Position numbers and translations under genes: made by a program
In this document: piece by piece, positions 547 through 45,743 of the stretch
How the letters are laid out: each line of letters begins with the position of its first letter
Numbering within the stretch: the stretch's first letter is position 1
Notes under the pieces: generated by a model
What the model was told of the DNA's origin: nothing
The model's database searches: none
Seen by the model: the letters and a program-made list of their open reading frames with translations, nothing else
DNA from: an uncultured Clostridia bacterium
GTDB lineage: Bacteria > Bacillota > Clostridia > Saccharofermentanales > Saccharofermentanaceae
Assembly: GCA_947303255.1 (NCBI GenBank)
Contig: CAMYXL010000003.1
Span: 21,351 to 85,350 of the forward strand
Direction: 5' to 3'
Length of the DNA stretch: 64,000 bases

Positions 547-1299
547 ATGAGCGTTCTTGAGATGAAAAACATACATAAATCCTTCGGTTCCCTTGAAGTT
601 CTTAAGGGTATAGATCTTACTGTCGAAAAAGGTGAGGTCGTTGCAGTAATAGGCCCTTCGGGCGGAGGTAAATCAACGCTCCTTCGTTGTGCCACGACAC
701 TTGAGACCATTGACAAAGGAGAGATCATCATAGGTGGTGATATCCTCGTTACGACCAAAGATGATAAGGCGGTTTACTGTGACAAGAAGATGCTCCAGGA
801 AGTAAGAAGCAAGTTCGGACTCGTGTTCCAGGGCTTTAATCTTTTCCCGCATTTTTCGGTCAGAAGAAACATCACTGAAGCACTTATTCATGTACACAAA
901 AAGAGCAAGGAAGATGCAGATCAGATCTGCGATCAGCTTCTTACTAAGATGGGAATGCTCGATAAGGCAGATTCTTATCCGTGCAACTTGTCAGGCGGAC
1001 AGCAGCAGAGAGTCGGAATCGCGAGAGCACTCGCGACGAACCCTGACATTATCTTTTTCGATGAGCCTACATCAGCATTGGATCCTGAACTTACGGCAGG
1101 CATTCTCAAGGTAATAAGGGATCTTGCTGAGGAGAAGATGACGATGGTCATCGTCACTCACGAGATGAGTTTTGCAAGAGACGTTGCAGACCGCATCATC
1201 TTCATGGACGGCGGCGTTATTGTTGAGCAGGGCCATGCGAAGGACATTATCAATAATCCGAAAAGCGAGAGGACCAAGTCTTTCCTTGCCGGTTATTGA
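547..1299 (+). CDS. Polar amino-acid ABC transporter ATP-binding protein (GlnQ-like)
   Basis: Cytoplasmic ATPase that powers the amino-acid importer encoded just upstream. At 250 aa it has the usual length for the GlnQ/HisP family. Walker [10 protein letters not shown] is at residues 36-44, the Q-loop is in [11 protein letters not shown], the signature is LSGGQQQR, Walker B is [14 protein letters not shown] and the H-loop is [10 protein letters not shown]. The start ATG is preceded by GGAGG at about 6 bases. Twelve bases separate it from the permease stop. Family assignment is secure; which amino acid is imported is not shown. Confidence 0.96.
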
Positions 1300-1352
1300 T
1301 TACATCATTGTAAGATTAACTGACAAATCGTAATGTAATCAAATAGTTTTTA
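1298..1352 (+). terminator. Possible weak terminator after the amino-acid transporter
   Basis: An inverted repeat GATTACAT ... ATGTAATC (1298-1305 and 1333-1340) overlaps the stop codon of the ATPase gene and is followed by a T-rich run (AGTTTTTAT). The loop is long and AT-rich, so it may equally be an operator for the next gene. Confidence 0.35.
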
Positions 1353-1407
1353 TCTTCCTTTAATCGTAATATGTATCTGTGAGAAAACTGATACGGGGAG
1401 AACATAT

Positions 1408-3726
1408 ATGAAATCAAGAAAACTGGTATCCATGATGTTGGTCGTGTTTGTCATGGCGGGAACTTTTATGCTGTTCTCGGGATGCAACAAAAACAATAAA
1501 CCGCGTGAGACCAATGTCACCATCAAAGGAGACGATCCGTGGTATTCTGCGGTGTTTTTCAAACCTGACGAGATCATAGATCCTTACACTGAGATCCTTA
1601 ACGGAACAAGTTTCCCGTTTGTTGTCGGAGATAATCTTTTGATAGCAAAGACCGGATCTTATTACAATGAGGATTCAGGTACATACGGAAACGGACAGAA
1701 GTTCGGACTTTTCACTATGGACGGAGATCTGATCTGCGATAACATCATGACCCGTGAGTCGGATTTTGGTCTTGTGACGATTCTCGGAGCTTTCCCTGAC
1801 GGAGATAACGTTAAGATACTTTTCACAGGACAATCTAAGGACCTTGGAACAGTTGCTCTTTATTCGATGGCCTGGGATACCGCAGCTAATACTTTCAGCG
1901 AGCCTGTTGCTCAGGATATCGGACTTGATGCAGGTTCTTATATTTCCAATCACTTCATGTATGGTGATTATCTCGTCATCGAAGAGATGGATTATGACGA
2001 CTTTAGCGAGAGCATCACTTTCCTTAAGAACAGTGATGTTATCGGAATATGTGATCTCTCCGAGACGGAATACCAAGGTTTTATGACCAGCGCAGTATAT
2101 ATGAAGAACGGTAACCTGATCCTTGAAGGAAGAGGCGGAATACTCTCATCAGGAGATACCAATTATTCCGGTGATACATTAAGACTTACTTTCGATCCGA
2201 ATAACGGTAATCTGATAAACGGTGAAGAAGCAGGTACAATAGCTACTCATAACGAGATCATCGGTTTTGACGGAAGAGCCTACAGTGCTAAATCAGACGG
2301 AATCTATGCAGGTGATGAGTTATATATCTCATATGCTGACTGTGATGTGAACATGAACAACATGAGCATGGTATCGCTTCTTTCCGTAGATCCTGATAGG
2401 GTAGTTATCTCAGGATATGAGATCAACATCCTCATGAGCACAGTCGAAGTAAGACTTGTAGTTCTCGAGAAGGCAGGAAGAAATCCGAATGCTGGTAAGA
2501 CGGTCATTAATGCAGTCTCACCGATTCCTCTTAGTACTGAACTCATGGAAGGCGTTCTAAGATATAACAGAGCTGATCACGAGTACTTCATCAAGCCAAC
2601 CGTAAGAAGCCTATATGAAGTTGATCTTAACAATGAATCTGAAGTTAAAAAGTTCTATAACGATTTCGCGCTTGATATCATATCGAGCACCAGTCCTGAT
2701 ATCGTCTTCAATGCCAACATGCTCTCGGGGATGATGACGGACGAGTATTTCCTGGATCTTGCTAAAGACGTTGAACTTGATGACAGCAAGTTTTATTCCA
2801 ATATTTATGATATGTCCGCTGTTGACGGAAAATACTACATGGTTCCGATAAGTTTTTCTCTAAGCGGTATTCTTGTTGAGAAAGAAAATCTAAGTGAAGG
2901 ACAGAGAGGATTTACTTTTGATGAGTATGTAAAATTCGTAAGTGATTCCTGTAACGGAGTAGATCCGATGGCAGCGCATATCTCCAGAAACGAGTATTTC
3001 ATGTCATGTTATCAGGCCATGGGTGATTTCTGGATAGAGGACGGAAAGGCTGACTTTGATAATGAAGCTTTCAGGGATCTTATGAAATATATAAAGGAAA
3101 ATGTTCCTCCGACCGTATTTGAAGATTCGATGAACAGATATGTCGAGATATATTACCTGGACGGCAGTGCGCAGAATAGTCCTACAAAATGCAAGTATCT
3201 CAATAGCGTTTCATACGACGGATATGAGTATCAGGCCAGAGGTTTTAAGGATCCTGTGTTCTGCGGTCTTCCGTCAGTTGACAGAAAGGGACCTTCTGCA
3301 TCCATAATTTCTTCCGTATCAGTCACTGCGAATACGGGCGTTAAGAAGGGGTGCATCGAGTTTATAGAAACTCTTATCGATACCGAGGTTCAGCTGAACT
3401 GTGAATACTTCTGCATCAACAAGGAAGCACAGGGCATGCTGCTGAGCGATAAGTATCAGGAGGAACTTAAGCAGTACGAAGATACGCTCGCTAAGTTTCA
3501 ATTTGAAGCGCAGGCCCGCAAGGAAGGATACTATGCTCCTGATGAGAAAACACAGGCACAGCTTTTAGACATCATCGAGAACATCGGTTCGGTAACCGCA
3601 GTCGATGAAGCGGTCTACGACATCCTAAGCGAGGAGGTCAGGACCTATTTTGACGGGGATAAAGATATCGATGCCGTAATAGATACGATCAATAACAGAG
3701 TTCAGACATATCTGAACGAGAAATAA
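1408..3726 (+). CDS. Large lipoprotein with solute-binding-protein-like C-terminal half (paralog 1 of 3)
   Basis: Predicted surface lipoprotein of 772 aa. The start ATG follows GGGGAG. A signal peptide ends in the lipobox FSGC near residue 27. The N-terminal half (about 40-370) is rich in short strands and aromatic residues and is not a family I recognise. The C-terminal half looks like a family-1 extracellular solute-binding protein: a SPDIVFNANML motif, a VPISFSLSGILVEKE segment, TFDEYVKFVSD and a late CIEFIETLIDTEVQLN helix. Two full-length paralogs follow, sharing DDPWY after the lipobox, YISYADCD, and RNPNAGK before the binding domain. No permease is adjacent, so it may be a sensor or stand-alone binder rather than an importer subunit. 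Function unknown. Confidence 0.85.
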   Translation: MKSRKLVSMMLVVFVMAGTFMLFSGCNKNNKPRETNVTIKGDDPWYSAVFFKPDEIIDPYTEILNGTSFPFVVGDNLLIAKTGSYYNEDSGTYGNGQKFGLFTMDGDLICDNIMTRESDFGLVTILGAFPDGDNVKILFTGQSKDLGTVALYSMAWDTAANTFSEPVAQDIGLDAGSYISNHFMYGDYLVIEEMDYDDFSESITFLKNSDVIGICDLSETEYQGFMTSAVYMKNGNLILEGRGGILSSGDTNYSGDTLRLTFDPNNGNLINGEEAGTIATHNEIIGFDGRAYSAKSDGIYAGDELYISYADCDVNMNNMSMVSLLSVDPDRVVISGYEINILMSTVEVRLVVLEKAGRNPNAGKTVINAVSPIPLSTELMEGVLRYNRADHEYFIKPTVRSLYEVDLNNESEVKKFYNDFALDIISSTSPDIVFNANMLSGMMTDEYFLDLAKDVELDDSKFYSNIYDMSAVDGKYYMVPISFSLSGILVEKENLSEGQRGFTFDEYVKFVSDSCNGVDPMAAHISRNEYFMSCYQAMGDFWIEDGKADFDNEAFRDLMKYIKENVPPTVFEDSMNRYVEIYYLDGSAQNSPTKCKYLNSVSYDGYEYQARGFKDPVFCGLPSVDRKGPSASIISSVSVTANTGVKKGCIEFIETLIDTEVQLNCEYFCINKEAQGMLLSDKYQEELKQYEDTLAKFQFEAQARKEGYYAPDEKTQAQLLDIIENIGSVTAVDEAVYDILSEEVRTYFDGDKDIDAVIDTINNRVQTYLNEK

Positions 3727-3735
3727 CATAGGAAA

Positions 3736-3770
3736 AGCCGGCTGCATCACATACGATGCAGTTGGTTTTT
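3736..3770 (+). terminator. Rho-independent terminator
   Basis: Stem CCGGCTGCATC / GATGCAGTTGG (G-U pairs on one side) with a 6-base loop, followed directly by five T. It lies 10 bases after the stop of the first large lipoprotein. Confidence 0.85.
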
Positions 3771-3836
3771 CGTTCTTGAGTAATGCTCGAAAACTATGTA
3801 TAGTGTGAAGTGAGAATAAGAGAAATGAGAATACAA

Positions 3837-6128
3837 ATGAACTTCAGAAAAATAGTTTCAGTAATCCTGATATCATCCGTTGTGTTTGGAATGACTCTCG
3901 CTTTTTCGGCGTGCAAGAAAAACAACAAACCCAGAGAGGGCAACTATATAATCCAGGAAGACGATCCGTGGTATACGGGACGGTCTTTCAATCCGTCTGA
4001 TTACACTAATTCTAAAGGAGCTTCATACAATCTTGAAGATAGTATTTTCTCAGTTGGAAATGATCTGCTTGTAGCAAGTTCAGGGTTTACATATGATGAA
4101 GGCGGACTGATGAAAGATAATGAGATGTTCATGCTTTTCGATTCCTACGGTGATCCATTGATCGAGAATACAATGTGCGTCGGTAATGAATACAGCAGTG
4201 CCAGGTATATCTGTGCATTTCGTGAAGATGATAACATCGATATCTACTTCAGTATGGAAGACTATGATTTGATAAAAGATGTCATTTACAAAGTTACATG
4301 GGATGTTAACAGTAACTCATTAAGTGAGCCTGTTGAGGAGTACGGAGATTTTAAAGAGAATAGCTATTTCTACAGTTCATATTCATCGGATAACTATTTT
4401 GCTGTTGTTGAGATGGGATATGATGATATGATTCAGAGATTATTTGTATACAACAGAGAAGACAATGTTGGAGTTATAGATCTGAGTGAGATGGATATGG
4501 GAAACTCATGGCTCCGTGGTATCCGTGAAGAAGACGGCATCCTGGTTCTCAACTGTACGAGATATGTGTCAGATATCACGGATACATATTCGACAGAGAT
4601 CATTTTTGATGTTCAGACGGGAACCGTTACAGACGTCAAAGAAGCTGGTTCTTCATATTCCAAGCAAAGTGTAAGAGGTTTTGACGGCAGATTATATAGC
4701 GCAAAGAATGATGGAATATATGTAGAAGATGAACTTTATATCTCATATGCAGATTGCGATTACAATCTGAGTTCTTTTATGGATGTAACCGTCCTGTCCG
4801 TTGAGGAGGACCGCGTCGTGCTGTCCGGATATGAAGTCGATCAGTATAACGTCAGTTTTGGAAAAGAAGTAGTCTTCCTTGAAAAGCAGAAGAGAAATCC
4901 GAATGCCGGAAAGATGGTCATAAATGCGCTTTCTCCGTCACTTCTGAGTTATGGGCTGACAGAAGGGATCATAAGATTCAACAGAGGAGACAGTAAGTAC
5001 TTCATAAGACCTGAGATCATGAATATACGTGATGTAAATATCGCTTCTGAAACGGAGATCAAAGAGTATTATAAAAAGTTCACGGAAGCGATCCGATCTG
5101 ACAATGGTCCGGATATAGTCTTTAATGCTGGTGAGTTATCAGGTGTTTTGACTGATGAGATGTTCCTTGATCTGAGCGAAGACATTGATTTGGATGAGGA
5201 GAAATACTACACGAATATATATGACCTTACAGCTTCCGGTGATAAGCATTTTGTTATTCCGTTGGAATATGGAATAAGCGGCCTTTTGATCGAGGGTAAA
5301 AATATTGATCAGGGGAAGAAGGGCTTTACTTTTGAAGAATATTCAAAGTTTGTAAGTGAAGTTTGTGATAATACGGATCCGCTGTCACTTAACACATCAA
5401 GAGTATACTATTTTCTTTCGATGTTCGATGCTATGGGTGATTATTGGATCAAGGACAAAACCGTAGATTTTGGAAACGATTCATTTAATGCTCTTCTTCA
5501 GTATGTGAAGGATGTGCCGGAGGATGTTTTCGCGAACAACATATCTTATTATGGGGATCACTATAGTGTCGGTTCTCCTACGAATAAGATCGCACTCATG
5601 TGTAAGTATGTCGAATGTATAGGATCATCAGATTATGCAACTGCTGCCTCTAAATTTTTGGAGCCTGTACTGTGCGGACTTCCATCTTTGGACGGAACAG
5701 GACCTGTGGCTTATCTCGAGTCTAGTGCATCGGTCACTTCCAATACCGGAGTAAAGGAAGGATGCATTGATTTTATAAGAACGCTTCTAAGTACGGAGAT
5801 CCAGCTTAACTGCGAAGGATTCTGCATGAATAAAGAGGCTCAGGGTATGCTGATGAGTGATAAGTATAAATCAGAACTGTCGGAGTTCTCGGGTAATATT
5901 GCCAAGTTCCAGGCTGAAGCTCATGAAAAGGGATACTATGAACCTGATGCGAAGAAAATGGAATGTGTAGAAGATGCGATCGAGAGTGTAAGCTGCGTAA
6001 CTAACTATAATTATGTTGTGCTTGTTGTCGTCAACAACTATGTTACCGGGTATCTGCTCGGATATAATGATGATGATGAAGGTATTGTTGACTCGATAAA
6101 CAACAAAGTACAATCACTTATTGGTTGA
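3837..6128 (+). CDS. Large lipoprotein with solute-binding-protein-like C-terminal half (paralog 2 of 3)
   Basis: Second member of the tandem trio. I chose ATG 3837 (MNFRKIVSVIL) because it gives a compact signal peptide matching the paralogs; the track start is a GTG at 3810 and another ATG lies at 3825. The ribosome binding site is weak in every case. Lipobox FSAC, then KKNNKPRE, as in paralog 1. It shares DDPWY, YISYADCD, RNPNAGKMVINALSP, GPDIVFNAGEL, FTFEEYSKFVSE and CIDFIRTLLSTEIQLN with its neighbours. The protein ends in a short degenerate tail rather than the TYLNEK-type end of paralog 1. Likely anchored outside the membrane; ligand unknown. Recent tandem duplication is the simplest origin. 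Confidence 0.83.
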   Translation: MNFRKIVSVILISSVVFGMTLAFSACKKNNKPREGNYIIQEDDPWYTGRSFNPSDYTNSKGASYNLEDSIFSVGNDLLVASSGFTYDEGGLMKDNEMFMLFDSYGDPLIENTMCVGNEYSSARYICAFREDDNIDIYFSMEDYDLIKDVIYKVTWDVNSNSLSEPVEEYGDFKENSYFYSSYSSDNYFAVVEMGYDDMIQRLFVYNREDNVGVIDLSEMDMGNSWLRGIREEDGILVLNCTRYVSDITDTYSTEIIFDVQTGTVTDVKEAGSSYSKQSVRGFDGRLYSAKNDGIYVEDELYISYADCDYNLSSFMDVTVLSVEEDRVVLSGYEVDQYNVSFGKEVVFLEKQKRNPNAGKMVINALSPSLLSYGLTEGIIRFNRGDSKYFIRPEIMNIRDVNIASETEIKEYYKKFTEAIRSDNGPDIVFNAGELSGVLTDEMFLDLSEDIDLDEEKYYTNIYDLTASGDKHFVIPLEYGISGLLIEGKNIDQGKKGFTFEEYSKFVSEVCDNTDPLSLNTSRVYYFLSMFDAMGDYWIKDKTVDFGNDSFNALLQYVKDVPEDVFANNISYYGDHYSVGSPTNKIALMCKYVECIGSSDYATAASKFLEPVLCGLPSLDGTGPVAYLESSASVTSNTGVKEGCIDFIRTLLSTEIQLNCEGFCMNKEAQGMLMSDKYKSELSEFSGNIAKFQAEAHEKGYYEPDAKKMECVEDAIESVSCVTNYNYVVLVVVNNYVTGYLLGYNDDDEGIVDSINNKVQSLIG

Positions 6129-39581: not shown

Positions 39582-39772
39582 ATACATACCCCTGGATAAA
39601 CAAATCTGCCTAGATTATATAAAATATTTTGTCAGTGTCTAACTATAAAACTGGCTTCATCATGAACGATTTCGCATGTTCTTGTGGGATAAATTCAAGA
39701 CATTACGGAGAGTATACTTCGATCAGGATTCCGGAACAGAAGATTTGTAAAGTAAATGTTAACAGTCGAGCA

Positions 39773-39792
39773 ATGTACTAAAAATGGTACAT
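39773..39792. promoter_or_regulatory. Inverted repeat upstream of the FtsK-like gene
   Basis: ATGTAC-N8-GTACAT, about 68 bases before the start codon. A possible operator for the WYL regulator encoded downstream. No gene is seen in 39582-39859. Confidence 0.4.
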
Positions 39793-39859
39793 AACTTTGT
39801 GCTACCCTTGGGGCAGAAGAAACGAAAATCTATTGCATAAATGCAAGGAGGAAAAACAA

Positions 39860-41059
39860 ATGATGATGAGTTACGAAGGTCAAGAATTAATTGATCTGTT
39901 GGATGAGGGAGCTGCATACGGTGTGTATGTAAGCGATGAACAACTTAAGAGTAATGCCGATGCGCTTAACAAGGTTTTTAAGGATATGGAAATCGGAGCT
40001 AAGGTCATGAAATTTGTAGGAGGACCTGCTTTCTCCGAATACAGATTGAGCGTGAAGGATATCGCTTCGATAGAAAAGATAGAAGCCTTCGGGGAAGAGA
40101 TCCGCGAGAAGATGGGAGTCAGATCTTTCCGCATAGTAAGGGAAAGACGCTTCGGCTTAAGGATGAGAGAGGTCACGGTCGAGATGGCCAATAGCCAACT
40201 TACGGAGGTGAAGCTCAAGGACTTTTTCACCGATTTCAGATTCAGGTTATCGTCAATGATGATACCTCTGGGAGCAGGAACACACAGGCGTTATTCTGCT
40301 GACCTGGGTGATAACATCTTCGTGGGCGGCGATATTTATACAGAAGTAAACGGCTATATTGATGCGGTGATATTGTCCCTTCTGTGTACGCAGACTCCGA
40401 GAGATCTTAATCTGATCCTGATCGGTTCAAGTAGTAAGAGTTTTGAAGAATTGGAAGGTATTCCGCATGTAGACGGTTCCGTTGTCAGAGATGTGAGTGA
40501 TCTAAGAGGAGTTCTTAGAGACATCGACAGAAAGATCAACGACAGATACGAACTCTTCTACGGAAATAATACCAGGAGCTTTGTCGAGTATAACAGAGAA
40601 GCAAGATTCACGAGAAGAAGCGAGAGACTCCCGAGGATCGTTTGTGTGATAAGCGATATCGGAGATTACATACTTGATGAGGAAGACCGTAAAAAGCTAT
40701 GCCGCGTCATCCTGCGAGGAAAGAATGCGGGAGTCAATTTCCTCATTGCGACTACGGATCTTCTGGAATCGGATATTGCACAGGATATCAAGGATGTCAT
40801 TGATGCACGAGTAGCTTTTCAGGTAATAGGAGAACAAGAAAGCAGGACGATCCTGGATCTTGATCTGGCAACCGGTCTTCTCGGTGAGGGAGATCTTATC
40901 TACTCGACTCCTACCGATACGGAAAAAGTTCAAAGTCCGAGAGTTTCAGCAGAGGAATATAGAAGGGTAACGGAATACATAAGACAGAATCAGAGTGAGC
41001 TTTATGCGGAGAGAAGACCGATCAGACACTCCCGTGAACTGCCTGATTCAGACGAGTAA
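39860..41059 (+). CDS. FtsK/SpoIIIE-like core protein lacking Walker A and B residues
   Basis: A 399-aa soluble protein; ATG 39860 follows AAGGAGG, and the track start at 39797 adds a spurious 21 residues. It follows FtsK alpha and beta domains end to end: GAKVMKFVGGPAFSEYRLSV matches the alpha strand, and ILSLLCTQTPRDLNLILIG, EGIPHVDGSVVRDVSDLRGVL, AGVNFLIATTD, ESRTILDLDLATGLLGEGD match the RecA-like motor. The membrane and gamma domains are absent. The Walker A segment GxTGSGKS is replaced by GGDIYTEVNG (about 156-165), with no Lys or Ser, and Walker B (normally DExAD) reads SDIGD. ATP hydrolysis is therefore unlikely. It may be a structural or regulatory relative of FtsK. The WYL regulator follows 15 bases later. 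Confidence 0.82.
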   Translation: MMMSYEGQELIDLLDEGAAYGVYVSDEQLKSNADALNKVFKDMEIGAKVMKFVGGPAFSEYRLSVKDIASIEKIEAFGEEIREKMGVRSFRIVRERRFGLRMREVTVEMANSQLTEVKLKDFFTDFRFRLSSMMIPLGAGTHRRYSADLGDNIFVGGDIYTEVNGYIDAVILSLLCTQTPRDLNLILIGSSSKSFEELEGIPHVDGSVVRDVSDLRGVLRDIDRKINDRYELFYGNNTRSFVEYNREARFTRRSERLPRIVCVISDIGDYILDEEDRKKLCRVILRGKNAGVNFLIATTDLLESDIAQDIKDVIDARVAFQVIGEQESRTILDLDLATGLLGEGDLIYSTPTDTEKVQSPRVSAEEYRRVTEYIRQNQSELYAERRPIRHSRELPDSDE

Positions 41060-41074
41060 AAAGAGGGGATAATT

Positions 41075-42079
41075 ATGGCAGGTATTGAACCCAAAATGCT
41101 TTCTATGTTGAGGATATACGATATTCTCGTCAAGTACAGTGACGAGAATCATCCGATGACCCAGGCTGATATAATCGAGAAACTGGAATCGGATTTTGGT
41201 ATCTCTCTTGATCGTAAAGCTGTCGCAAGAAAGCTCTCTGCTCTTAAAGAGATCGGACATGAAATACCGCAGACACGTAAGGGATGCTATCTTAAACAGA
41301 GGGTCTTCGAAGATTCGGAACTTCACTTCCTGATCGATATGGTACGTGGCAATACGATAATCAGTCCGAGACATGCGAGCGATCTTATCGAGAAATTGAG
41401 CAGCCTGAGCAATGCTTATTTCAAGCCGCGTATCAGTGTGGTGCCGGAGGATATAGGTGCAGCTAAGAAGGGTGATAACCCGGCTCTGTTTCTGAATGTA
41501 GATCTTATATACGAAGCAATCTCTGCGGGGAAACAGATCAAGTATGACTATAACCTCTATGGAAACGATAAAAAACTACGTAAATCTTCGGAACAGATCG
41601 TAAGTCCGTATCAGCTTTTTTTCCATATGCAGGGATACTATCTTATGGCTTATTCCGAGGCTAAGGAGCATATCTCTTTTCACAGGATCGAACGCATTAC
41701 AAATATTGAGATCATCGATAAGGCAATTACACCGATCACCAAGATAAAAGGCTATGAAAAAGGCCTCCCGCAGAATTTCTATACTGCGGCAAGACCTTAT
41801 ATGTTCTCAGATAAACCGGAGAGGATCGAACTTCTGATCAATGATGATAAATATCCGATCAACCAGCTTGTCGAGTGGTTCGGAAAAGATATCTCGATAA
41901 AAAAGAGCGATGAACATCCGGGTCATTATGAGGTGAGCCTCATAGCAAGTCCGAAGGCCATGAAACTCTGGGCACTGCAGTACGCAGACCATGTCGTTAT
42001 CAAGAATCCTCCGGAACTGGCTGATAGTGTTTTGGAGTCACTGAACTATGCTATCGACCACTACGAAGACGAGTATTAA
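41075..42079 (+). CDS. WYL-domain transcriptional regulator
   Basis: A 334-aa regulator. An N-terminal winged helix (about 1-75: DILVKYSDENHPMTQADIIEKL, LDRKAVARKLSALKEIGHEI) precedes the WYL domain (about 140-225) with SPYQLFFHMQGYYLMAYSEA and FHRIERITNIEII, then a C-terminal WCX-like part (about 255-330). WYL proteins sense ligands, often nucleic acid or nucleotides, and many control phage-defence or DNA-damage genes; that role is not shown here. Co-transcribed with the FtsK-like gene. The stop overlaps by 3-4 bases the stop of the convergent ABC exporter gene. Confidence 0.9.
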   Translation: MAGIEPKMLSMLRIYDILVKYSDENHPMTQADIIEKLESDFGISLDRKAVARKLSALKEIGHEIPQTRKGCYLKQRVFEDSELHFLIDMVRGNTIISPRHASDLIEKLSSLSNAYFKPRISVVPEDIGAAKKGDNPALFLNVDLIYEAISAGKQIKYDYNLYGNDKKLRKSSEQIVSPYQLFFHMQGYYLMAYSEAKEHISFHRIERITNIEIIDKAITPITKIKGYEKGLPQNFYTAARPYMFSDKPERIELLINDDKYPINQLVEWFGKDISIKKSDEHPGHYEVSLIASPKAMKLWALQYADHVVIKNPPELADSVLESLNYAIDHYEDEY

Positions 42080-43911
42080 ACTTCGATATATGCGCCGGCC
42101 TGTGCTTTCCACATGTCGGCGTATTTGCCGTTCATGGCAAGAAGCTGTTCGTGATTGCCTTCTTCTACGATCCTTCCGTTCTCCAACATGAAGATGTGAT
42201 CGGCAATCCTTGTTGTCGACAGACGGTGTGATATGAAGATTACCGTCTTATCTCCCGTAGCACCAAGCATCGCATGGTTGAGCTGATACTCGGCGATAGG
42301 ATCGAGGGCGGACGAAGGTTCGTCTAAGATCATGAGTCCCGCATCTTTGTAGAAGACTCGTGAGATCGCGAGTTTTTGGGACTCACCGCCTGAGAGGTTC
42401 AGACCTTCTTCGTCGAACTCAGTTGTCAGCATCGTATCAAGACCTGAGGACAGGTTGATTGCTCTGTCGTAAAGACCGCTGTCACGAAGTGAAGATATGA
42501 TCTTATCTTCGTTCGCGTTTTCGAGAGGAGCAAGGACGACATTTTCCCTCACGCTTCCGGCGAAGATGTTGAAGTCCTGGAAGACTGCACCGATGGAATC
42601 GCGGTAGGATTCGAGATCGTAGTTTCTGATGTTTTCGCCGTCTGCCTTGATAGTACCTGAGGTAGGATCGTAAAGACGCATGAGGAGCTTAACGAGTGTA
42701 GTCTTTCCTGCACCGTTATAACCGACGAGAGCGATCTTGCGGCCCGGCTTGATGAAAAGACTAATGTCATTAATGACACTCGGAGTGTCAGCCTTGTAAG
42801 AGAATGATACGTTCTCGAGATCGATCCTCTTTGCGTCCTTAGTTGCGATCTTGTCACCTTCGGAAACGATCTTTGGCTCCGTACCTAGGAAGTCGCGGAT
42901 CTTCTGGATATAAAGGCTCGTCTCGCATGAAGCAGGGTAAGTTTCCGTGAAGACATTCATGCTGCTTCTTAACCTTCCGAAAGAGTTATAAAGGATCGCG
43001 AGGGTACTTATCGAGATGTTCTTCGTTACGACTACCATGAGGATCAGGTAGGTGATATACAAAGTGTCACAGATGAAGAAGTTTGAGATGTGACGTCTCA
43101 GGAATTCGAGTATGAAACGTTTACGAGAATGCTTCTTATCTACGGCTACGATCTCCTCAGAGGCCTTGTCGAATCTGTCGTACATGATGCCTGCGACTTC
43201 AGGGTTCATACGAAGTTCCTTGGCGTAATCGTTGAGGTAGAAGATACGCTCGATATATGTGCGCTTACGCTCGGACGGATTTCTCTCGATCCTTGCTTTG
43301 TAATTGACCTTGATGAACATCTGGTTAAAGACGTAGCTCATGATAAACGAGGCAATAACAAATAATATCGACGGCTTGTCCTTGACGATGAAGTAGACAC
43401 CGTTTGATATGAAAGCCGTAAGACCGCTTAAGACATTGATGATGATGCCTTCGAGCTTATCAATCTGGTTATCGACCTCAGACAGAGCGAGTACCTGTGA
43501 GTTGTAGAACTCTGGATCGTCATAGCAAGCGAGATCGACCTTGGAAGCTTTCTCGTAGAGCATGATCTTGATCTTTTCTTTGACCTTCGGACTCTCTTTT
43601 GCCATGATGTAGTCGCCTGAGAAAACAGTGAAGAGCATTCCGATGGTGATCGCGACTGCGAGTATCAGTATAACCGCACAAACGCGCTCGAACGGGTAGC
43701 CCTTCTCTGCTGCTTCGAGTACATAACCTATTCCTACCGTATGTTCGAAAAAGATGGACAACTGTCCTCTTATAGCATCGAATGCAGGTATGATGACAAA
43801 AGCAGGTGATGCTTTGAACATCAGCTTCAAAAGAAACAGGTTATTTTTCAAAACAACAGAGGCCGGTTGTTTTGGCTTCTTGTTGTTAGGTTCTTTCTGA
43901 CCTTTGCTCAT
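42076..43911 (-). CDS. ABC exporter, fused permease-ATPase (second subunit)
   Basis: Half-transporter of 611 aa: N-terminal membrane domain with about six helices (1-330), C-terminal ATPase (about 365-605). Walker A is GYNGAGKTT, signature LSGGESQK, Walker B LMILDEPSSALDP and H-loop ISHRLSTTRIAD, all intact. Its start overlaps the stop of the partner gene upstream by 4 bases (ATGA type), so the two are translationally coupled and probably form a heterodimer. Substrate unknown; no peptide precursor or peptidase domain is visible. Confidence 0.92.
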   Translation of the reverse strand: MSKGQKEPNNKKPKQPASVVLKNNLFLLKLMFKASPAFVIIPAFDAIRGQLSIFFEHTVGIGYVLEAAEKGYPFERVCAVILILAVAITIGMLFTVFSGDYIMAKESPKVKEKIKIMLYEKASKVDLACYDDPEFYNSQVLALSEVDNQIDKLEGIIINVLSGLTAFISNGVYFIVKDKPSILFVIASFIMSYVFNQMFIKVNYKARIERNPSERKRTYIERIFYLNDYAKELRMNPEVAGIMYDRFDKASEEIVAVDKKHSRKRFILEFLRRHISNFFICDTLYITYLILMVVVTKNISISTLAILYNSFGRLRSSMNVFTETYPASCETSLYIQKIRDFLGTEPKIVSEGDKIATKDAKRIDLENVSFSYKADTPSVINDISLFIKPGRKIALVGYNGAGKTTLVKLLMRLYDPTSGTIKADGENIRNYDLESYRDSIGAVFQDFNIFAGSVRENVVLAPLENANEDKIISSLRDSGLYDRAINLSSGLDTMLTTEFDEEGLNLSGGESQKLAISRVFYKDAGLMILDEPSSALDPIAEYQLNHAMLGATGDKTVIFISHRLSTTRIADHIFMLENGRIVEEGNHEQLLAMNGKYADMWKAQAGAYIEV

Positions 43912-45743
43912 AAGATCACCTCCTCTTCGTTTTCTATGGCAAGGTAGTTCATCGCCTGGCGCTTATACATCTCGCAGTAGCTGCCTCCGAGAGCGATGAG
44001 TTCCTTGTGTGTGCCTTCCTCGATAAGACGGCCGCCCTCGAGCATGAGGACGCGGTCGCAGTTCTTGACTGAGGACAGGCGGTGGGAGATAAAGAGCATG
44101 GTGTGGTCTTTACCTTCCTTCATGATGTTCTTGAAAAGTTCGAATTCCGCGATAGGATCGAGAGCGCTTGAAGGCTCGTCGAAGATCTTGACAGGCGATG
44201 GCTTCGCGAAGGTTCTCGCTGCTGCCAGTTTCTGATTCTGACCGCCTGAGAGAACGACGCCGTCTTCGTCAAATTCCTTCGTCATCATGGAATCGATGCC
44301 GTTAGGAAGTGATTCGATCTTGTCCAGTATTCCTGTCTTTTTAAGACTGGCTCTTACGACTTCGTCTTCGTTCTCAACGTGTCTTCCCATCATGACATTC
44401 TCTCGGACTGTCATGCCGAAGATCTTGAAATCCTGGAATGTAGTAGCGAACAATTCACGGTAAGCGCGAAGCTCATATTCGCGGATGTTGATGCCGTTTA
44501 ACAGAATCTCTCCTGATGTCGGATCGTACAATCTCAGAAGCAGTTTGATGATGGTAGTCTTACCCGCGCCGTTATGACCTACGAGTGCAATTGCCTCATC
44601 TTTGTTGATCTTGAAAGACAGATCCTTGATGGTCTCTTCATCCTTATATGAGAAGCATACGTTCTTAAATTCGAGAGTCTCAAACTTCTCAGGAACGATA
44701 CCCTTCTGATCTTCAGGGATCTTTTCTTCGTACTCCAAAAATCCGCGGAGGTTATTGATGAAAAGACCGTTCTTGATTAGCTTTGTTATATCTTCGAAAA
44801 GTCTTATGAGGATCCACGTGGCGGCAACCATAAGGCTAGTCATGATAGTCAGTTGCGCAAGTGAGATAGTTCCTGCAACCTGCTTTTTATAGAATGCATA
44901 TATGAGCACGCCTTCGAACATAACGGTGAAGGTGAACGTGATCCTTAATACGTTAAGGCTCATGTTCGGGAATGCGAACTTAACAGCAACCTTTACGTTT
45001 TCTGCAGTTGCTTCACCGTAGCGGCGCTTCAGGATCTCGAAGACTTTGCTGAGCCTTATCTCCTTTGCTCCGTCCGGCAGATACATCATTCTGTTGACGT
45101 AGTTTAATACCTTGTTGTTCGGTGCCTGCTCGCGGTATCTTTTAAGCTCATATTTGCTCTTAAGATTTCCGAAAACAAAGTTACCGATGATAGGTGAGAT
45201 GATGAACAATACCGACCACTTATCGATGTCGAACATCAGCTTAAATACGCAGATGGAAGCAGCGGTTCCTATGATGGCTCCGCTGAAGCTTTTGACGATC
45301 TCCATTACCTTGTCGGAGGAACCGTCGATAGCCATGGTGTACTTGTTATAAAAATCCGGATCTTCGTAGCAGCGAAGCTCAACATTTCTTGCCTTCGCGA
45401 AGATCTTCTTATAGATCCCGTTATGAAGTTTTGTGCCTTCAATAACGAATGTGACCTGCTGCGTGTAATAGTCGTAGACCTTCAGTACGAGCAAGATCGC
45501 AGCGCTTATTCCGATGAATGTGAGAAACGTCCTGAGACCTTCTCCTCTGTCCAAAGCTTCTATGACGATCCTAAGAAAAAAACCGTCAAAAAACACCCAT
45601 TCGGCATAGCCGATGAACATGCTGAAGAATGCACCGAATATTGCCGGTTTGCTGAATGATCCTGCCAACTTGACCGCATAAGCATCATTCTTCAGAGTTT
45701 GCCATAAGGACAGCTTTTCTTTTTTCTTTTTGCTTTTCCCCAT
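43908..45743 (-). CDS. ABC exporter, fused permease-ATPase (first subunit)
   Basis: First gene of the exporter pair, also 611 aa. Membrane domain (about 1-335) followed by an ATPase with Walker A GHNGAGKTT, signature LSGGQNQK, Walker B VKIFDEPSSALDP and H-loop ISHRLSSVKNCD. Both subunits keep the catalytic Glu after Walker B, so neither site looks degenerate, unlike many heterodimeric exporters. The track ATG at 45743 gives a lysine-rich N-terminus (MGKSKKKKEK). It may export lipid, drug or peptide; the neighbourhood gives no hint. Confidence 0.92.
   Translation of the reverse strand: MGKSKKKKEKLSLWQTLKNDAYAVKLAGSFSKPAIFGAFFSMFIGYAEWVFFDGFFLRIVIEALDRGEGLRTFLTFIGISAAILLVLKVYDYYTQQVTFVIEGTKLHNGIYKKIFAKARNVELRCYEDPDFYNKYTMAIDGSSDKVMEIVKSFSGAIIGTAASICVFKLMFDIDKWSVLFIISPIIGNFVFGNLKSKYELKRYREQAPNNKVLNYVNRMMYLPDGAKEIRLSKVFEILKRRYGEATAENVKVAVKFAFPNMSLNVLRITFTFTVMFEGVLIYAFYKKQVAGTISLAQLTIMTSLMVAATWILIRLFEDITKLIKNGLFINNLRGFLEYEEKIPEDQKGIVPEKFETLEFKNVCFSYKDEETIKDLSFKINKDEAIALVGHNGAGKTTIIKLLLRLYDPTSGEILLNGINIREYELRAYRELFATTFQDFKIFGMTVRENVMMGRHVENEDEVVRASLKKTGILDKIESLPNGIDSMMTKEFDEDGVVLSGGQNQKLAAARTFAKPSPVKIFDEPSSALDPIAEFELFKNIMKEGKDHTMLFISHRLSSVKNCDRVLMLEGGRLIEEGTHKELIALGGSYCEMYKRQAMNYLAIENEEEVIL

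Follow-up and report, generated by a model that had tools for sequence, protein, structure and literature searches.

A free-standing FtsK core next to a WYL regulator

The window analyzed here, a 64,000-nucleotide stretch from an uncultured Clostridia bacterium of the Saccharofermentanaceae, carries a two-gene operon in which the first gene encodes an FtsK-like protein, here called pFtsK, and the second a WYL-domain transcription regulator (Table 1). The pFtsK gene starts with the ATG at 39860, behind a ribosome-binding site, AAGGAGG, at 39845-39851. Judged by its sequence, pFtsK is a homologue of the FtsK translocases and not a member of them. As a preliminary description of this DNA had proposed, FtsK alpha and beta domains run along its whole length: the alpha domain (Pfam, E 4.5e-8) is followed by an FtsK_SpoIIIE match on residues 167-329 (E 4.9e-12, above the Pfam cut-off), and in a PDB sequence search residues 13-374 align with the FtsK structures of E. 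coli and P. aeruginosa (E 2e-21, or E 4e-32 with a profile of the four pFtsK family members). The reading frame opens with the alpha domain and closes about 15 residues past the beta domain, and these limits bear out that the N-terminal membrane part and the gamma domain are absent. Structure prediction, which had been suggested as a check, gave a low-confidence model (mean pLDDT 64) for which FtsK motor chains fill the first 17 places among the PDB matches (TM up to 0.59), ahead of TcpA and EccC/EssC.

Table 1. Coordinates of the pFtsK-WYL operon, its candidate control sites, and the second group of Walker-less proteins (window positions unless a locus is named)
Feature	Position	Strand	Basis
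pFtsK, Walker-less FtsK alpha-beta core protein, 399 aa	39860..41059	+	Pfam cut-offs exceeded for FtsK_alpha and FtsK_SpoIIIE; PDB match to FtsK, E 2e-21; orthologous genes in three further genomes
FtsK alpha domain of pFtsK, residues 11-94	39890..40141	+	Pfam PF17854, E 4.5e-8
Erased P-loop of pFtsK, residues 156-164, GGDIYTEVN	40325..40351	+	Alignment columns 156-164
Arg239 of pFtsK, equivalent of trans-acting Arg548 of P. aeruginosa FtsK	40574..40576	+	Alignment; retained in 4/4 orthologues
Erased Walker B of pFtsK, residues 263-269, VISDIGD	40646..40666	+	Alignment
Lys288 of pFtsK, arginine-finger position (Arg620 of P. aeruginosa FtsK)	40721..40723	+	Alignment; K/K/K/R in 4 orthologues
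WYL-domain transcription regulator (winged HTH, WYL, WCX-like), second operon gene	41075..42079	+	Pfam WYL, E 1.4e-9; 15 bp past pFtsK
Inverted repeat ATGTAC-TAAAAATG-GTACAT-AAC, candidate WYL operator	39773..39795	+	Conserved upstream of 4/4 pFtsK-WYL operons
Palindrome TGTTAACA upstream of the operator	39757..39764	+	Upstream alignment; GTAAACA in one orthologue
Second Walker-less group, member in L068	5552-6964	+	
Second Walker-less group, member in L069	5387-6808	-	
Second Walker-less group, member in L072	5593-7368	+	
Second Walker-less group, member in L066	4747-5922	-	

The WYL regulator mentioned in the preliminary description is real: its WYL domain scores above the Pfam cut-off (E 1.4e-9) and its WCX match below it, while a low-confidence model (pLDDT 60) finds its best matches in PafBC, DriD, BrxR, and CapW; a PDB profile search with the WYL alignment gave no match. 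The proposed search for other Walker-less FtsK cores next to WYL genes turned up three further genomes among the 85 of the genus. An orthologous WYL gene, 90, 53, and 55% identical to the window's copy, lies 12-26 bp 3' of pFtsK in all four genomes. The operon is found in three surroundings, with FeoB and two ABC transporters in the window and G076, with an EAL-type protein, an esterase, and a glutathione peroxidase in G106, and with other genes in G088; since the pair is intact at all four loci, pFtsK and its WYL partner stay together as the neighbors change. No nuclease, Orc/Cdc6, or helicase component lies next to the operon at the four loci, and a promoter scan around it performed no better than on shuffled sequence. 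The two adjacent 611-residue ABC transporter genes (window 42076-45743, minus strand) probably form a heterodimeric exporter and adjoin the operon in the window and G076 only. In our reading of the WYL motif, R204 and R207 of the regulator correspond to R211 and R214 of PafB, the two arginines needed for ssDNA binding (PMC11804915); this R-x-x-R pair is R/R in the window and G076, M/H in G106, and K/H in G088.

Orthologues of pFtsK have a narrow distribution, being found in 4 of the 188 genomes of the order and 4 of the 85 of the genus, the window's included. The three others, all likewise Walker-less, are 86% (G076), 48% (G106), and 49% (G088) identical to it, and by their public names the relatives come from gut and rumen Clostridia assemblies, one of them from yak omasum. 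Scanning our contig collection with the single pFtsK sequence gave no match, and the pFtsK alignment recovered the same three relatives and one ordinary Bacteroidales FtsK. Spread by phages or plasmids was considered and rejected, as viral contigs held no relative; among the matches listed, phages and plasmids had solely ordinary FtsK proteins, at less than 30% identity to pFtsK. The gene is under purifying selection, weaker than that on neighboring genes: between the window and G076, dN is 0.08 and dS 0.34-0.41 (dN/dS 0.19-0.23), with substitutions mostly synonymous. Together with the four Walker-less orthologues, the fixed operon with the WYL gene, and the conserved upstream site, this supports the earlier view of a maintained pseudo-translocase rather than a decaying gene.

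Loss of the nucleotide site

Alignment confirms that both Walker motifs are lost, in pFtsK and in all of its orthologues. FtsK LIAGSTGSGKSVCLN has become FVGGDIYTEVNGYID in pFtsK, with E162 in place of the last glycine and V163 in place of the lysine, both invariant in the four orthologues; VVIIDEFADL has become VCVISDIGDY; and the phosphosensor TQ falls in a stretch that reads ATTDL. All other FtsK proteins of the order in our set retain GxTGxGK[ST] and DE, barring a few divergent paralogues and a second Walker-less group described below. We defined 152 conserved columns (at least 93% among 54 ordinary FtsK sequences, almost all of them from the order), of which 39 are retained in all four family members and 86 are lost in all four. 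The framework pieces that had been named as well kept do persist in part, with PH of EGIPHV, SR.ILD, and LLG.GD invariant in the four orthologues, but they stand against the 86 columns lost throughout the family. Those lost in all four include G, S, G, K, and S of the P-loop and D and E of Walker B, and Q and R of TQRP as well as P and K of DPK are also lost or replaced throughout.

Residue roles have been described for P. aeruginosa FtsK, where Arg548 acts in trans, Arg620 is the arginine finger, and His675 and Phe695 stack on the adenine (PMC9410874). We related pFtsK to it by a numbering offset of 245, fixed on Glu596 and consistent for Arg548, Arg620, Thr630, Gln631, Arg632, His675, and Phe695. 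The equivalents of His675 and Phe695 are replaced, so that, with the phosphosensor and DPK also gone, the evidence for lost nucleotide use reaches further than had been claimed. By this alignment, the elements that serve the protein's own nucleotide in cis have gone and two basic positions that act on a neighbor's nucleotide remain (Table 1), a suggestive pattern, two positions being too few for statistics. The position of Arg632, which grips DNA through loop II, is D/D/Y/G in the four orthologues, which argues against pFtsK clamping or gripping DNA through the usual loop. In all eight Walker-less proteins that we found, the last P-loop glycine is a glutamate and the lysine a hydrophobic residue; we conjecture that the glutamate is a built-in acidic stand-in for phosphate. 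In the model, helix alpha-1 begins at residue 160, within the former P-loop.

Origin and related paralogues

Trees in which the two Walker-less groups were placed separately, the WYL-linked one (group I) and the one with a gamma domain (group II), put each of them within the genus's own FtsK radiation, and both are therefore probably local derivatives of cellular FtsK. Both sit on very long branches, that of pFtsK at about 4-8 changes per column. A first tree joined groups I and II (96/95), with long branches flagged; once the active-site columns were removed, the join vanished, and a common origin of the two was neither favored nor rejected (AU p 0.49).

Group II was found in three other genomes of the genus (G001, with two members, G090, and G097). 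Its members have no WYL partner and retain the gamma domain, in two copies in L072, and their P-loops read GSDPIEIE, GANPREFQ, or GSDNGEIT. Ahead of the L072 member (931-5526) lie a Vsr-like nuclease, a GHKL-type ATPase, and two further genes, in what looks like a defence-type neighborhood. A possible half-way state of Walker loss is seen in another FtsK paralogue (L010 475-2178, minus strand; G029:C107), whose P-loop GAVGSGKQ keeps the lysine and has lost the Ser/Thr. Besides a full-length FtsK on contig C31, the window's genome encodes two additional soluble FtsK paralogues that have a gamma domain and intact Walker motifs (L063 4440-6005, G000:C98; L064 5800-7677, G000:C28), the latter overlapping the end of a UvrD-type helicase gene in an operon-like arrangement. 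In G082:C4 (L061 5549-7648), a different WYL regulator is divergent from a short, beta-only FtsK protein with intact Walker motifs, with a TIR-domain gene and a second WYL-like gene nearby.

A candidate operator and its second copy

The preliminary description did not include the inverted repeat ahead of pFtsK (Table 1) or its second, defence-linked site. Across the four operons the consensus is RTGTAC-NNAAAANN-GKACAY-AAC, placed 65 bp ahead of pFtsK in the window; the matches at these four operons follow by construction of the pattern. With at most one mismatch allowed, none of the 81 genomes in the genus without a pFtsK operon contains the pattern. Sites with two or three mismatches were about as frequent as those of a reversed control pattern and were not used; one such operator-like site with two mismatches (L123 5123-5145; G088:C88:6122-6144) lies 45 bp ahead of a gene resembling ADP-ribosylglycohydrolase genes and may have arisen by chance.

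The window's genome holds one further exact copy (G000:C26:2104-2126, minus strand), where 4e-4 would be expected by base composition. It has the same orientation relative to the gene starting at 1923 (minus strand), about 180 bp from the start codon. The product of this gene matches the PADLOC model PDC-M09A (5e-70), and the next gene, truncated where the contig stops, matches BnzB (6e-74), which makes this an operon of the Bunzi-like anti-phage type; an intact homologous PDC-M09A and BnzB pair is present in G017, and PDC-M09A occurs with PDC-M09B in G082. Within L122 1-2260, the site lies in a divergent intergenic region shared with a PcfJ-like gene, so the regulated target could be on either side. 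This defence-linked copy is found in one genome, and the other three pFtsK genomes have no PDC-M09A. WYL regulators of defence operons are known to bind such inverted repeats (PMC9122601). Since the pattern stands before the protein's own operon and the C26 defence operon and, at this stringency, in no genome of the genus that lacks the pFtsK operon, the WYL protein probably controls both in the window's genome.

Possible functions

The reading that we favor, tentatively, is that pFtsK is a domesticated FtsK paralogue, expressed under certain conditions, that may serve FtsK-type DNA motors as a decoy or as a subunit unable to hydrolyse ATP. In this view a chromosomal FtsK was duplicated in this genus of rumen Clostridia, and the copy would have lost its membrane part, gamma domain, and nucleotide site and kept the alpha-beta fold. 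The homology, the erased site, the purifying selection, the operon, the repeat, and its second copy can be read from the sequences; from there we infer a series of steps in which the WYL protein would act on the repeat at 39773-39795, so that pFtsK would be made only when the regulator allows it, from an operon that is probably autoregulated, and the same factor would probably also govern the PDC-M09A and BnzB operon in the window's genome. On infection or DNA stress, pFtsK would appear and enter or cap FtsK-type ring motors, neither binding nor hydrolysing ATP and offering its basic residues to the neighboring subunit. As a result, the DNA pump might be slowed, stalled, or located, the target being either the cell's FtsK or an invader's FtsK-like motor. 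A dead alpha-beta core with kept trans residues is the expected look of a non-hydrolysing ring subunit, hence this reading as a decoy or brake. The retained trans-acting basic positions also fit the earlier hypothesis that pFtsK acts as a poison or a scaffold for the FtsK hexamer, or binds to DNA but does not move along it. Against the decoy model count the loss of Arg632, the presence of the second site in a single genome, the distance of that site from its gene and its divergent PcfJ-like neighbor, and the narrow distribution; the long branch further means that the ring interfaces may have changed too. A more ambitious version, in which the operon is a WYL-controlled immune or checkpoint module that provides a catalytically dead FtsK subunit when needed, so as to poison or mark pumps of the FtsK type, under common control with the Bunzi-like operon, seems unlikely in this full form.

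Among the other functions that could be proposed, a role as co-regulator is a somewhat doubtful one, in which pFtsK acts as a sensor or anti-regulator by binding its WYL partner, whether free or on DNA, and the dead core is a protein- or DNA-binding platform that makes no contact with FtsK. The unbroken pairing of the two genes across four genomes and three surroundings speaks for it, as does the fact that both genes stand behind the same conserved site, and the loss of the whole motor site would cost nothing in such a role; yet BrxR, CapW, DriD, and PafBC act without a partner of this kind, and the conserved R239 would need another reason. We think it improbable that the operon is instead a DNA-stress checkpoint that works without mixed hexamers, in the manner of DriD and DidA, with the WYL protein sensing ssDNA and inducing pFtsK to block division or segregation through some other divisome or DNA contact. 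The WYL model does match PafBC and DriD best, and the WYL activator DriD induces a division inhibitor in Caulobacter (PMC6789036), but the M/H and K/H pairs of two orthologues replace the ssDNA-binding arginines, and the second operator site points to phage defence rather than repair.

Two further readings carry very little weight. That nucleotide binding persists through a rebuilt site, leaving pFtsK a motor or switch, has the kept fold as its only point and is very hard to reconcile with the GGDxxxEV P-loop, in which acidic and hydrophobic residues stand where GSGKS stood, with the replacement of the Walker B D and E, the sensor Q, and the His675 and Phe695 equivalents, or with a helix alpha-1 that starts inside the former P-loop of the model, as it does in the non-ATP-binding DUF domain of EccC5 (PMC11154593). 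A hidden nucleotide site was accordingly rejected, no set of residues having been found that could rebuild one. The long branch and narrow distribution could also be those of a neutral FtsK relic or an assembly or binning artefact, an idea that scarcely survives the data: the gene is present in four independent assemblies, dN/dS is about 0.2, and the operon and operator are conserved, with the same neighbors in the 86% identical relative. We rejected this reading on the strength of the assemblies, the dN/dS, and the conserved operon.

Comparison with known systems

Kinases and the type VII secretion ATPase provide well-studied cases of dead enzyme copies. In the limited set of literature that we searched, we found neither a dead FtsK motor that stands on its own nor a separate FtsK core lacking the Walker motifs and governed by a WYL regulator. 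Should pFtsK join FtsK rings, nature would have supplied a dominant-negative tool against the fastest DNA pump known, and the candidate operator offers a connection, open to direct testing, from a WYL regulator to a dead DNA motor and an anti-phage operon.

Among the closest known systems is the FtsK/SpoIIIE motor (PDB 2iuu, 6t8b), which shares alpha and beta domains throughout, gives the best sequence and fold match, and has the Arg548 position in common with pFtsK; unlike it, pFtsK is without the membrane part, the gamma domain, Walker A and B, the phosphosensor, the adenine-stacking residues, and the loop-II Arg632. The DUF, D2, and D3 domains of EccC/EssC from type VII secretion resemble pFtsK in having an FtsK-type P-loop fold with the cis elements erased and in being kept without ATP use, with helix alpha-1 extended into the P-loop (PMC11154593), as in the pFtsK model. 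Those dead domains, however, share a single membrane-bound polypeptide with other ATPase domains, whereas pFtsK is free-standing, predicted to be soluble, and paired with a WYL protein; as a single 399-residue protein it has no tandem ATPase domains of the type VII kind, and in the tree it branches among the FtsK proteins of its own genus. HerA/FtsK capture systems directed against invaders (DndH and relatives; PMC10853773) likewise use a cellular FtsK core with an alpha domain in a conflict-related setting. They have been described around translocating domains together with nucleases or Orc/Cdc6, and pFtsK has neither such neighbors nor a motor site. WYL regulators acting in defence and in DNA damage are already known, and the regulator itself is best compared with BrxR, CapW, PafBC, and DriD. 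In this case the partner is a pseudo-FtsK and not a known effector, and the ssDNA arginine pair is not conserved in the family. What the WYL protein has in common with these regulators is the winged HTH-WYL-WCX architecture, an inverted repeat before the regulated operon, and a second site at a defence operon, and in the window's genome alone candidate operators stand before both the regulator's own gene and a defence operon, the arrangement of the BrxR and CapW type.
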